Of a DNA stretch of 64,000 nucleotides, positions 54,543 through 59,207 are shown piece by piece. Within the stretch, counting starts at the first letter, position 1, and each line of letters starts with the position of its first letter. The translations under genes and the position numbers were made by a program. The stretch covers positions 1,790,011 to 1,854,010 of the forward strand of contig NC_019977.1 in NCBI RefSeq assembly GCF_000328665.1, read 5' to 3'. Origin of the DNA: Methanomethylovorans hollandica DSM 15978 (GTDB taxonomy: Archaea; Halobacteriota; Methanosarcinia; Methanosarcinales; Methanosarcinaceae). A model generated the notes under the pieces. That model did no database searches, was not told the origin of the DNA, and saw only the letters and a list, made by a program, of their open reading frames with translations.

Positions 54543-55001
54543 TTATCTTGTGATAAGCATTTCTGCCGTTTCAGGCTTGTATTTCCAGTCATTTGGAAGT
54601 ACCTTAGTGGACTGGTAGTACTTAACAAGTCTACGAATCTTGGATTCGACATTATGCAGGGAACGGGTGTTATGATTGTCCGAATGATTGTGGACCACAT
54701 GTTTCCTCAGACCTATTGCTTTTACAACTAGATTGTACAGGTCTTCCGGAACTGGTGGTTCCTGATCATTTTCCCTGAGAATGGCAGTGATCTTTTTCCC
54801 AGTAGCAAGCTTGACATCTGGCATTCCATATTTGTCCCTAAGGACCATGCCAATGAGGCTTGTGCTCATACCCTGCTTCCACATTTCCAGCACAACTTTT
54901 GTAATCTCGTCTGTGCTCATAGTACACCATGCAGGTGCTTCAGAGCGCATTGGCCTTTTAGAACCGGATTGACCTTTTCTCCGGGTATGCATTTTTGCCA
55001 T
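54543..55001 (-). CDS. rps15: 30S ribosomal protein uS15
   Basis: The ATG at 55001 has AGGAGG six bases upstream and gives [20 protein letters not shown], the archaeal/eukaryotic N-terminal extension. The product is 152 residues. [43 protein letters not shown] is the conserved uS15 core. It is a single gene with its own terminator. Confidence 0.96.
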
Positions 55002-55164
55002 TGAATTCCTCCTAATAATTGCAAATGAGTATTTGATGTAAATTATGTAAATTTTGTTGATCTCAATAAAGGCTATTTGAACGTTATGGAGATATAGCCT
55101 ATAATTGTCCTTGGCGAGGCGAGGTAAATGAAGCAGCATAGCATATAAGATTTGTGATAGGGAT

Positions 55165-56379
55165 TTACCATATCACAAGGGTAACCTCAGCTGCCGGAGG
55201 TTGTACATGCATATAAATAGAATATAATTGCTTATCCCTAAGCTCAAGCAAAGTAATAAGATCGTCCGTTTGCATCATTACCTGTATAGTATCATTGATC
55301 TCCTCGGACATAGCGTCTGAAATATAAGAATATACATCATTTGTATGTTTTTCCTGAATCCGGCTTGCAGCCAAGTTCACATTTGCTTCCGTAAGCATTG
55401 TGATATTTGTTGAATTCAAACACATATTTCCGGTTAAATTTGCAGCGTTAATCAATATATCAGTAGCTATAGCCTTTCCAATAACTGTCCCACCAGAAGG
55501 CATTCCCATCAAAGAAGCACCCATTGATACAAAATTTATATGTCCTGTGCTTATTTTTTGCAGAGAATCTTCAGGAAAGTACATCTCTACAATCGAAGCA
55601 GAAGCATTTGACGCTGCGAAGTATATGCACTCCTCGAACATGGAACGCAACTCATACTCTTTATTAGAAGAATTGACTGCAAGTTCAAATTTAAGATCAT
55701 CTGCAGGAGATGATATATCTGCTAAGCTCACGGAATGACCATATGGCACAGATATTAGCGCACTCTGCCTGAAGGACCTTCCAGGAGGAACAGCACCCAC
55801 GGAAATCTGACCCGAAGGCCCGCACCCAGGAACCGGCTGCCAGTTAGCTTCCAGCTTGTAATTGTATCTGCCACCTATTCTTCTGTTCAGATGTTCTTCA
55901 AGTGCGTTTTCTATAGCTTGCGAGTATCCGGCACTGAACGAGTGTAGATAATAGTACTTCCCATTTGCCTCAGTACGCAGTGAGAACAACATACCTTCTG
56001 CGATCAGGTCGGCAAAGGTCCTAGAGGTATGTTCCTTTGCAAAGATATTATTGTACTTATAAAGATGCATTGTACTTTCAGCAGGTATGATAATAGTAGC
56101 CGTAAATGCAGATGGCATTATTGTGTACTCAAAACCTTCTACCCTGCTATCCAGAAGAGATTGCAGCAACTGTCCATCATATCTGTATGCTGCAACATCC
56201 TGTAAAGCCTCATTATGCCCCGAAGAAAGCATAACAGGCATCAGCACTACTGCTGAAAGGGATATCATCAAAAGGAAGACCATTACATCAATGGTTGATG
56301 AAATTGCACTTCTATCGGAAATCATTTGCCTGTGCACCGGGTTTTTACACTGCATTGATTTAGACTTCATATTAAACAT
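55165..56379 (-). CDS. Pilin-like exported protein, fourth of the cluster
   Basis: This 404-residue protein has a basic N terminus, then [30 protein letters not shown], one membrane helix preceded by the conserved Asp-Arg-Ala/Ser-like step seen in this cluster. A large predicted external domain of mixed composition follows, including [21 protein letters not shown], a CGPSG turn and [22 protein letters not shown]. Archaeal type IV pilin-like minor proteins in haloarchaeal and methanogen DUF72xx-type clusters look like this. I do not recognise the exact family. It overlaps the previous gene by 8 bases. Confidence 0.62.
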
Positions 56380-56872
56380 CCCACCGCTCTTTGAACAGTT
56401 TCACCGTCAGTGTACCAGGAACCTGCTGCATTGGGTTAAGTTCCAGTGTGACGGGCACGGAAGCAGCTATCTGCCGCATGGAGGAAGAAGCTGATAAAGT
56501 CCTGCGGATATGCCAGACGTATTCACCGTCCTCAGTTGAAATATCTGCCTGGAAATGAACATTTGGAGAAAAACTATCAAAGAACAGTCTCAAAGTCTGC
56601 GGGTCAGATCGCGGACCACTCAGCTCATCCAGTTTCTCAGCAGACATGAGGTCCTGTCTGCTGCCCTGAAGCATCTGGGAGCGAGCAATGCTCTGTGCGA
56701 TCAGAGAGGCCTGCCCATAGTTCTCCAGTGCGAAAGCACTGTCCTGTTGTGCAATGTATGTTTTCGATACCACACAAGCAAAAATCACAAAACCCAGTAC
56801 CAATAACGCCGTAGCGAAAATATCGTTCTGTGGTTCAAGTATAGCCCTGTCGTCATTGATAAACCAGTACAT
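56372..56872 (-). CDS. Pilin-like exported protein, third of the cluster
   Basis: This 166-residue protein starts MYWFINDDRAILEPQNDIFATALLVLGFVIFACVVSKTYIAQ, one N-terminal membrane helix of pilin character with the DDRA step before it. The external part includes QIAASVPVTLELNPMQQVPGTLTVKLF, a beta-rich end. Its start overlaps the preceding gene by 20 bases and its end overlaps the next by 8, so the cluster is one transcript. Confidence 0.6.
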   Translation of the reverse strand: MYWFINDDRAILEPQNDIFATALLVLGFVIFACVVSKTYIAQQDSAFALENYGQASLIAQSIARSQMLQGSRQDLMSAEKLDELSGPRSDPQTLRLFFDSFSPNVHFQADISTEDGEYVWHIRRTLSASSSMRQIAASVPVTLELNPMQQVPGTLTVKLFKERWDV

Positions 56873-57452
56873 ATCCTATCTTTTCCACATTTATATTGTT
56901 ATTAAAATATATAAATGTTTTTTGGATGTAGAACTGCTCACTGGCATTAAAAGTGACCTCATCGGCCCCCCTTGATGTTAAATATCTGACTATATCCATA
57001 TGTTCTGAACTAATGGGTTCCATTATACTACCATTAGCACCATATTCTGATCTAAGATCATTGTACAGGATGGAAGGCGAATAAGGATATACTCTGAAAG
57101 CAGGGGTTCTTGCTGATATCATTGATCGGCCATCAATAATAGTATCAATGACCACATATTCACCGGATATTGAAATTTCAAATTGTTGTTCCTGAAGATG
57201 GGAAAAATGCCCTGCATTGAACGTATAGGTGATATTCGTCTCATAGGGACTGCTTCCAACCTTATCTATATAGGATAAGAATTCTGAAGAATGCATATCC
57301 AGCTCCTTCTGACGATCCATTTGTTCCATGCTTACTGCAAAATGATATACAGCAGCAATAACCACCACACTTGCAAGTATAAGTGCTGTTTTTGAAAGAA
57401 CGAAATCCATCCATGCCCTATTATCATGGATAAAAACTGACAAAGCCTTCAT
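56853..57452 (-). CDS. Pilin-like exported protein, second of the cluster
   Basis: This 199-residue protein starts SVFIHDNRAWMDFVLSKTALILASVVVIAAVYHFAVS, again an Asn-Arg-Ala step followed by one membrane helix. The external domain is beta-rich and has few cysteines. It has no recognised enzyme motif. It lies 28 bases after the first pilin-like gene. Confidence 0.6.
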   Translation of the reverse strand: MKALSVFIHDNRAWMDFVLSKTALILASVVVIAAVYHFAVSMEQMDRQKELDMHSSEFLSYIDKVGSSPYETNITYTFNAGHFSHLQEQQFEISISGEYVVIDTIIDGRSMISARTPAFRVYPYSPSILYNDLRSEYGANGSIMEPISSEHMDIVRYLTSRGADEVTFNASEQFYIQKTFIYFNNNINVEKIGYVLVYQ

Positions 57453-57480
57453 TTTGATCCTTGACTAAAATTTTTGCCAC

Positions 57481-57969
57481 CTATTCAGATATCCTCACAA
57501 AAAGCATCCCATCTGCAGGATTTACAATGGTTTCCATGAACAAAAAATGTTCACCCGGGGGAAGAACGATCACACCATCCATTAGATCATTGCTGTAAGC
57601 TGCCTTGGACTCCCTTACTATGAATTTCCCATCATGTTCCAGAAAATAGTTCTTTGCATCAAGAGGCCATGATGACTCACATCCGGGCATGGACCCCATG
57701 ACCACCCGATATCCTGCCGGTACATTCACTTCCATTGTAACATTGCTACCCGGACCACCAAGGTACAAAATTGACGCAGTGGCATCCAGCTCGGATATCT
57801 CTGATCCCAGATCGCTTATTCTCATATGGGCCAGGAAACCTGAAGTTGCTGTAGCTAACAGTGCCATGACTACCATCATTATAATGGATGCTACCACAAA
57901 CCGCATGGGTAAGGAGACAGCAGCAGTTCTATCCGCTGCCAGAACATGCAAAGTCCTTGAGTGCCTCAA
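57481..57969 (-). CDS. Pilin-like exported protein, first of the cluster
   Basis: This 162-residue protein has the N-terminal helix [27 protein letters not shown] after a DRTAAVSLP step, followed by a small external domain with [21 protein letters not shown]. The ATG overlaps the hisS stop codon by 4 bases. The order short, short, short, long resembles minor-pilin sets, but no pilus ATPase or membrane platform gene is in the window. Confidence 0.62.
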
Positions 57970-59207
57970 TTGCTTTCACCGGTCAGCTTTAAAATGATCT
58001 CATCCAGAGTAAGGGATTCCTGAACCCCGCTTTCCATATCTTTCAAAGTCAAAACACCCTGGGACACTTCCCTGTCACCTAATATGAGTGCATAGCGGGC
58101 ACCTATATTGTTAGCATACGATAGCTGAGCCTTGAAATTCCTGTTCATGATATCCATATACACAGGCACATACTCCCTTAGCTTACATGCCACTGGGATA
58201 GCATTGATGCGTGTGCTTTGCGTGGTGATCATGACGACGGTCTTTTGCGATACAAGTTCAATGTTATATATTTCCATGATCCTGTCAAAACCCAGACCAA
58301 AACCGGTAGATGGAACATCGCCCCCTCCGAAAAGCTGGATCAGTTTATATGAACCGCCACCGCATACCTGCTTTTGTGCACCCAGGCCCTCGGCATATAT
58401 CTCAAAGACCATACCTGTATAGTAATCAAGACCTCTGGAAATGCCGAAATCAATAGTGTAATCGATATCATACGCATCTAAAAGAGTAAGTATCTGCTGG
58501 AAAGTATCTATTTCAGGAATTGGACCGAGCAGGTTGCTGGCCTTGGAAATAGCTTCACTGCCGGTAAGGGAAATGAGTCCAAAGAGTTTCATGCGCAGGT
58601 CTGTCGGCGCATTGATCTCCTCCAGATAATAGTCCAGCCCCATATCATCTTTCTTGTCTACCAGACGCATTATCTTACCTTGCTTCTCAACTTCCAGAGA
58701 ACTCAGTACATGACGTATGATCCCCAGATAGCCTACATGCAGATCACCCTTAATGCCAGCAACCTCAAGCATAGCAGTTGCCAGGGATATCACCTCTGCA
58801 TCCGCATCAGGGCCTTCGGAACCGATAAGTTCCACACCGAACTGCCAGAACTCTCTGAACCTGCCTTTCTGCGGCCTCTCATATCTGAAACAATTTTCAA
58901 AATAGAACAGTTTCAAGGGACGCGGTAAGGCCTGCATCTCATTTACGAACATTCTCATCACAGGTGCCGTGAGTTCAGGGCGCAAGGTCATCTCACGATC
59001 CCCTTTATCCTTGAAATTGTAAAGTTCGCCTACCACACCTTCACCTGACTTCAGTGTAAAAAGCTCCAGGTGCTCAAAAGTGGGTGTAACTACCTCTTGG
59101 TAACCCCATCTGCCAACTACCTCCCTTAGCCGGTTTTCCAGATATCTTCTGCGGACCATTTCTTGCGGAAGGAAATCTCTTGTTCCTCTTGGTTTTTGTA
59201 TCGTCAT
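57966..59207 (-). CDS. hisS: Histidyl-tRNA synthetase
   Basis: This 413-residue class II synthetase starts [17 protein letters not shown]. It has motif 2 [20 protein letters not shown] near residue 112, the histidine A motif [13 protein letters not shown] near residue 261 and [13 protein letters not shown]. The C-terminal anticodon-binding domain is complete. AGGTTGATC lies just before the ATG. The stop codon overlaps the first pilin-like gene. Confidence 0.96.

Follow-up and report, generated by a model that had tools for sequence, protein, structure and literature searches.

In bacteria, the GspH-I-J-K set and the priming complex of type IV pili (T4P) are small groups of pilin-like proteins of unequal size, the last of which is the largest and carries a helical insertion. 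Among the archaeal systems closest to the one considered here is subclade 4F, which the account of Makarova et al. (2016, PMC4858521) characterizes by ATPases that bear a Cys-rich N-terminal domain and are prominent in methanomicrobia, by a hybrid origin, by a stand-alone major pilin of the PilA family (arCOG02981), by an S-layer-like gene and, in halobacteria, by a coiled-coil protein. The same account describes the PilB3-C3 operon of Haloferax volcanii, which lacks pilin genes and acts on pilins encoded elsewhere, and the minor pilins EpdA-C of Methanococcus maripaludis, which are needed for piliation. Other haloarchaeal PilB loci are described as serving adhesion and filament formation (Legerme and Pohlschroder 2019, PMC6491452; Losensky et al. 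2015, PMC4292770). PMC4858521 was the only relevant paper on subclade 4F in the literature searched, and a term search of its main text gave neither hisS nor histidyl. Passages on pili in a paper on Methanosarcina cell surfaces (PMC12369344) mention archaella and not the gene set described below.

The window analysed here is a stretch of 64 000 nucleotides of the Methanomethylovorans hollandica DSM 15978 genome (the host genome). It carries four genes, A to D, behind the histidyl-tRNA synthetase gene hisS. We consider it likely that they are the minor-pilin part of a subclade 4F type IV pilus system, cut into three loci in this genome. What is new here is a dispersed version of a known archaeal pilus system.

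Organization of the hisS-A-B-C-D cluster

The positions of the genes are reported in table 1. The stop of hisS and the start of A share four bases (TTGA), B and C overlap by 20 bases and C and D by 8. The original prediction was of four overlapping genes; this is correct for these three junctions but not for A and B, which are separated by 28 bases, the sole junction of the cluster without an overlap. The spacing suggests that A–D are cotranscribed with hisS. As also predicted, no PilB or TadC gene adjoins the four genes in the window. The gene next downstream of D (window 54543–55139, minus strand) resembles by eye that of ribosomal protein S15, so that the partner gene E does not adjoin D in the window.

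Table 1. Positions of the hisS-A-B-C-D cluster and of the related genes in the host genome.
Feature	Location	Strand	Remarks
hisS (histidyl-tRNA synthetase)	window 57966..59207	−	ORF of 413 aa; upstream of A in 28/28 loci showing hisS
A, DUF7311-like, pilin-like, 162 aa	window 57481..57969	−	TTG start
B, pilin-like, 199 aa, positional counterpart of haloarchaeal DUF7283	window 56853..57452	−	
C, DUF7285-like, pilin-like, 166 aa	window 56372..56872	−	most conserved of A–D
D, DUF7284 protein, 404 aa	window 55165..56379	−	Pfam PF23955
E (DUF7286), 1338 aa	C2:1137740–1141756		followed by F, a 197-aa sarcinarray MAST-domain protein (L092:11767–12360)
811-aa PilB	C2:1978963–1981398		131 kb from A–D; locus with TadC C2:1978963–1983364
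MinD-PilB-TadC-TadC operon (641-aa PilB)	C2:1732445–1737093 = L043:6446–11094		108 kb from A–D

Conservation of the cluster in related genomes

When GTDB genomes were scanned with the C family, 29 loci were obtained, and their titles place all of them in the Methanosarcinaceae (Methanomethylovorans, Methanolobus, Methanococcoides and unnamed members). C is 39–88% identical to the window protein across these loci, the closest (88%) being from Methanomethylovorans. A, B and C are present in all 29; D is found in 27, the contig of the other two ending at or just past C, and hisS in 28, the remaining contig beginning too near A. The order hisS-A-B-C-D recurs in every one of the 28 loci holding hisS, which makes the cluster more than a chance arrangement. 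B and C overlap in 27/29 loci, and the hisS/A overlap is exactly four bases in 11/28. In two loci of genus g7 (L056 and L063), some 4 kb separate A from hisS; the link to hisS is therefore a habit of the host's family and no general rule. E and F stand divergently just upstream of hisS in 7/29 GTDB loci (L102, L107, L111, L113, L116, L118 and L119), and the gap between the E match and hisS is 320–404 bases in four genomes of a separate sample (those with G numbers).

Pilin features and protein families

All four window proteins have a short polar leader and a D/N-x-x-small step followed by a single N-terminal hydrophobic helix, in agreement with the prediction of one such helix after an acidic/R/small step. 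A single TM-like segment (Kyte–Doolittle) is found in most relatives (A, 28/29; B, 29/29; C, 25/29; D, 25/27). The positive residue ahead of the presumed cut is not kept in all of them (DENA, DDSA, DQSG). The host genome contains one match to A24 prepilin peptidases and three to PF07790 (stand-alone pilins). Three of its pilin genes, which either were found via PF07790 or neighbour a PF07790 match, share the step of A–D (EEAVSPVIGVIL, DERAVSMSVGFIL and SDDAVSEMVDFGI); host pilins sharing this leader step include EEAVSPVIG and DERAVSMSV.

D matches PF23955 (DUF7284) with E = 1.9e-13 and 51.4 bits, over the Pfam cut-off of 27, and C matches DUF7285 below the same cut-off (E = 0.076, 14.1 bits). 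In Pfam, A has no DUF7311 hit and B no DUF7283 hit; searches of both against Pfam and NCBIfam returned only sub-threshold matches to unrelated families. Profiles of the methanogen sets were also compared with those of 14 loci that we call haloarchaeal-type, a label inferred from strong Pfam matches and G+C-rich sequence. This paired A with DUF7311 (90.9%), C with DUF7285 (96.1%) and D with DUF7284 (98.3%), all off-diagonal pairs being at most 1%. The match of B to DUF7283 (0.3%) is not detectable, and none was found when the comparison was repeated with trimmed starts and with intermediates from f11 and f2. B lies just upstream of C, the place of DUF7283 in the haloarchaeal-type loci, so its likeness is one of gene order only. 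Their profiles identify A and C as distant relatives of DUF7311 and DUF7285, respectively, and D as a DUF7284 protein. The likeness to haloarchaeal minor-pilin sets noted in the original prediction is thus supported by profile for A, C and D, and by position for B. No paper mentioning DUF7283, DUF7284, DUF7285, DUF7286 or DUF7311 by name was found in the literature searched.

The AlphaFold2 model of A (29 sequences, mean pLDDT 84) consists of a long N-terminal helix at residues 7–71 and then a beta domain of seven strands. That of D (27 sequences) is of low confidence (mean pLDDT 65); in it, a helix at 23–77 precedes an alpha/beta part, after which come helices between 219 and 392 and a final strand, in short a predicted N-terminal helix and alpha/beta domain with a large helical insertion. 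Against the PDB, the A model reached at best E 0.19 with Foldseek and Z 4.7 with VIA-align (rmsd 2.8 over 44 residues), and the low-confidence D model E 0.49 and Z 6.8 (rmsd 5.3 over 89); no pilin was listed for either, and searches of the PDB with the sequence profiles of A and D gave no match. The models did not show the folds unlike pilins that would have told against the original prediction, and neither did they match a solved structure convincingly. The set resembles GspH-I-J-K in the unequal size of its members, with D, the last, being the largest and carrying the predicted insertion; it differs in that no sequence or fold match of D was found in the PDB.

Haloarchaeal-type and other loci

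The gene order at the haloarchaeal-type loci is A-PilB-TadC-B-C-D-E. C and E are present at all 14 of them, B and D at 13 each, PilB and TadC at 12 each and A at 11; E is about 1000 aa long. A link between such pilin sets and a secretion ATPase in related genomes, on which the original prediction depended, was looked for and is provided by the 12 loci with PilB. The two loci without it (L071 and L074) belong to genomes with the ATPase elsewhere (G200 and G264), and in L075 B is placed after E. A gene of coiled-coil appearance (by eye), homologous to L067:3779–4279, occurs at 11/14 loci. DUF7284 and DUF7286 occur in each of the two named control genomes, those of Haloferax volcanii and Methanosarcina acetivorans.

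The set forms one locus with its motor in most haloarchaeal-type genomes and one locus around hisS in Methanolobus; the f11 locus L078 has A-B-C-D-E-F unbroken, without a motor. In the host genome, the kit is found in three places: hisS-A-B-C-D, E with the sarcinarray gene (1.138 Mb), and the 811-aa PilB with TadC (1.979 Mb). F lies directly behind the giant E gene in L078 and seven GTDB loci as well, and is a candidate surface partner for the pilus. In the literature searched, the name sarcinarray appears in one paper, in a table row.

The motor locus of the f11 genome G009 (L139) carries PilB and TadC together with a pilin-like gene that matches the A profile at its N-terminus. On its other strand (L139:7956–10097), genes for a HerA-like ATPase, an A24 peptidase (4.8e-11) and a DUF7311-type protein form an overlapping run. 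The last of these falls just below the Pfam cut-off (1e-5, 26.6 of 27 bits) and matches the A profile with 1.2e-9 (two sequences searched). It overlaps the peptidase gene by four bases, which ties the A family to prepilin processing.

The 811-aa PilB and its TadC

The host genome contains seven matches to the T2SSE family, six of them above the cut-off. One is a PilB of 811 aa with a Cys-rich N-terminal region (Cys at 59, 76, 79, 90, 148, 156, 201, 204, 228 and more) and an intact Walker A motif (GGVGAGKT at 510). The gene overlapping it codes for 671 aa and has no Pfam hit; we call it TadC from its position and multi-helix look. The haloarchaeal-type TadC is found by Pfam T2SSF below the cut-off only. 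For each of the 12 haloarchaeal PilB proteins encoded beside DUF7284, the best match is the 811-aa ATPase (E 9e-66 to 3e-89) and the second best the 641-aa PilB (8e-18 to 3e-28). In a maximum-likelihood tree, the 811-aa ATPase and four methanogen orthologues group with the haloarchaeal PilBs (100/100); the 641-aa PilB and FlaI stand apart. The proposal that the motor of the filament is elsewhere was therefore well founded, as a matching ATPase is encoded in the same genome, and A–D are most probably the pilins of this PilB/TadC pair.

As in subclade 4F, the N-terminal domain of the ATPase is rich in Cys and the ATPase is paired with one long TadC; in haloarchaea the pilin set of the system lies beside it. 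The coiled-coil-looking gene is a further likeness and would correspond to arCOG07564, and the secreted MAST/sarcinarray gene beside E may be the 4F S-layer-like gene. Unlike in 4F, the host's motor, A–D and E/F are in three places, with A–D behind hisS. The match is a good fit, drawn from the published description; our own tree shows only the grouping with haloarchaeal PilBs. The separation of the motor operon from the pilins recalls PilB3-C3 and PilA1-6 of Haloferax volcanii, but PilB3 belongs to another ATPase clade in the published classification (PMC4858521), and PilA1-6 are major pilins from stand-alone genes whereas A–D are a fixed set of four. EpdA-C are likewise several minor pilins of a methanogen, likened here by description; their system, unlike that of A–D, is in ATPase clade 1.

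Co-occurrence and shared decay

We searched 294 genomes of the phylum; the counts given here ignore shared descent. D was found in 78 of them, the PilB N-terminal domain in 77 and E in 76, and all three occur together in 71 of the 82 genomes having any. D and PilB coincide in 74 genomes (D only, 4; PilB only, 3; neither, 213), D and E in 73 (D only, 5; E only, 3; neither, 213), and PilB and E in 73 (PilB only, 4; E only, 3; neither, 214). The PilB profile was built from PilBs beside DUF7284, a selection that favours co-occurrence in haloarchaea but not in methanogens.

Within the host family (41 genomes), 24 genomes have D, PilB and E in long frames, 11 have none and 6 are damaged. The losses fall in several genera, and g2, g6 and g7 each show both states. 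In G144, the cluster has been cleanly deleted except for its end: the final 29 codons of D stand within 12 bases of the hisS match, downstream of it (L126:6946–8277). Its PilB match begins only at residue 197, the first 196 aa being lost, and E is missing. G206 retains no more than fragments of A and D; its PilB is spread over two frames and its TadC over three, and E is absent. G120 retains remnants of B, C and D, with neither PilB nor E. In G256, D is interrupted by about 1.1 kb and the PilB match stops at residue 449, E being long. PilB or E is thus lost or damaged along with D in four of the six. The exceptions are G162, where D is whole, PilB is in two frames and E is reduced to pieces, and G270, where D alone is damaged (two frames) and PilB and E are long; because of these two genomes, the decay is not strictly joint. 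These comparisons show that A–D, E and the 811-aa PilB/TadC belong together.

Alternative explanations

The nearer MinD-PilB-TadC-TadC operon might be thought to drive A–D. It is complete and no pilin gene was seen adjoining it, so that its pilins must be elsewhere, and archaeal PilB/TadC pairs can act on pilins encoded in trans, as described in PMC4858521 and PMC6491452. This is nevertheless very improbable. The haloarchaeal PilBs beside DUF7284 match its PilB far less well than the 811-aa ATPase, and its distribution does not follow D: in a search of 60 genomes, orthologues of the 641-aa PilB (at least 59% identical) are kept in G073, G085, G090, G167 and G196, all without D, whereas the D-bearing G125, G139, G157, G162 and G226 have paralogues of 44–49% at best. 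On these two grounds we reject it as the motor. A role of A–D in the service of histidyl-tRNA synthetase or of translation could account for the constant adjacency of hisS and A, yet we give it almost no credence: the f11, f2 and haloarchaeal-type loci gave no hisS match next to the set, and hisS remains where the set decays (L126 and L061). A functional tie to hisS is rejected for these reasons.

Two other readings concern the structure that is built. A–D and E could make up a short pseudopilus for secretion, or a membrane complex fixed at the cell surface, with no long filament. The four proteins are reminiscent of GspH-I-J-K in size, as is D in its predicted helical insertion, and the gene maps of the loci show no major-pilin gene of PilA type. 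We consider this reading unlikely. Archaea of this type lack an outer membrane across which to secrete. Moreover, related archaeal PilB loci are described as producing adhesive pili (PMC4292770, PMC6491452). The same gap in the locus maps, and the duplication of A-type genes beside the motor in G009, would also suit one of A–D being the main shaft subunit rather than a minor pilin. We judge this quite unlikely, as A–D are single-copy and unequal in size in each locus, stand-alone PF07790 pilins exist in the host genome and the published 4F model includes a stand-alone PilA-family major pilin (PMC4858521).

Proposed mode of action

We therefore retain the reading of A–D as minor pilins of the dispersed 4F-type system. 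The A24 prepilin peptidase would cut their short leader at the D-R/E-A/S step, and the 811-aa PilB with TadC would pull A–D and the giant E from the membrane by their N-terminal helices. A–E would then make up a complex that initiates a thin adhesive filament and sits at its tip; the shaft would be a stand-alone PilA-type pilin encoded elsewhere. In this view hisS is a mere neighbour supplying transcription. The role of A–D as priming or tip minor pilins carries less weight than their link to the motor. A broader view, possible but rather doubtful, is that A–E are a conserved five-protein tip and priming complex common to haloarchaea and methanogens and located away from the motor in the latter; E would be the tip adhesin, and the whole would correspond in archaea to the bacterial complex of minor pilins with PilY1, or to GspHIJK.

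Genes whose annotation goes no further than DUF7283–7286 and DUF7311 can now be assigned to a single system, and where a genome has several PilB paralogues the motor that belongs to them can be identified. The pairing of pilins with motors in archaea may be solved in this way, from shared losses in relatives.

Other pilus genes

Three pilin-like genes in a row, with starts ...DERAVSMSVGFIL, ...SDDAVSEMVDFGI and ...GIAVSSVIDVAIL, are found at L125:1–1764 (C2, ~125 kb), a putative second pilin set of the host genome. At L045:8013–10247 (C2, ~1.050 Mb), a TadC gene lies beside a PilB gene broken into at least three frames, to all appearance a decayed further pilus motor of this genome. In two genera, an 811-aa-type PilB is encoded near a putative xseA (exonuclease VII large subunit, by eye; L091:630–1850 and L135:8134–9366).
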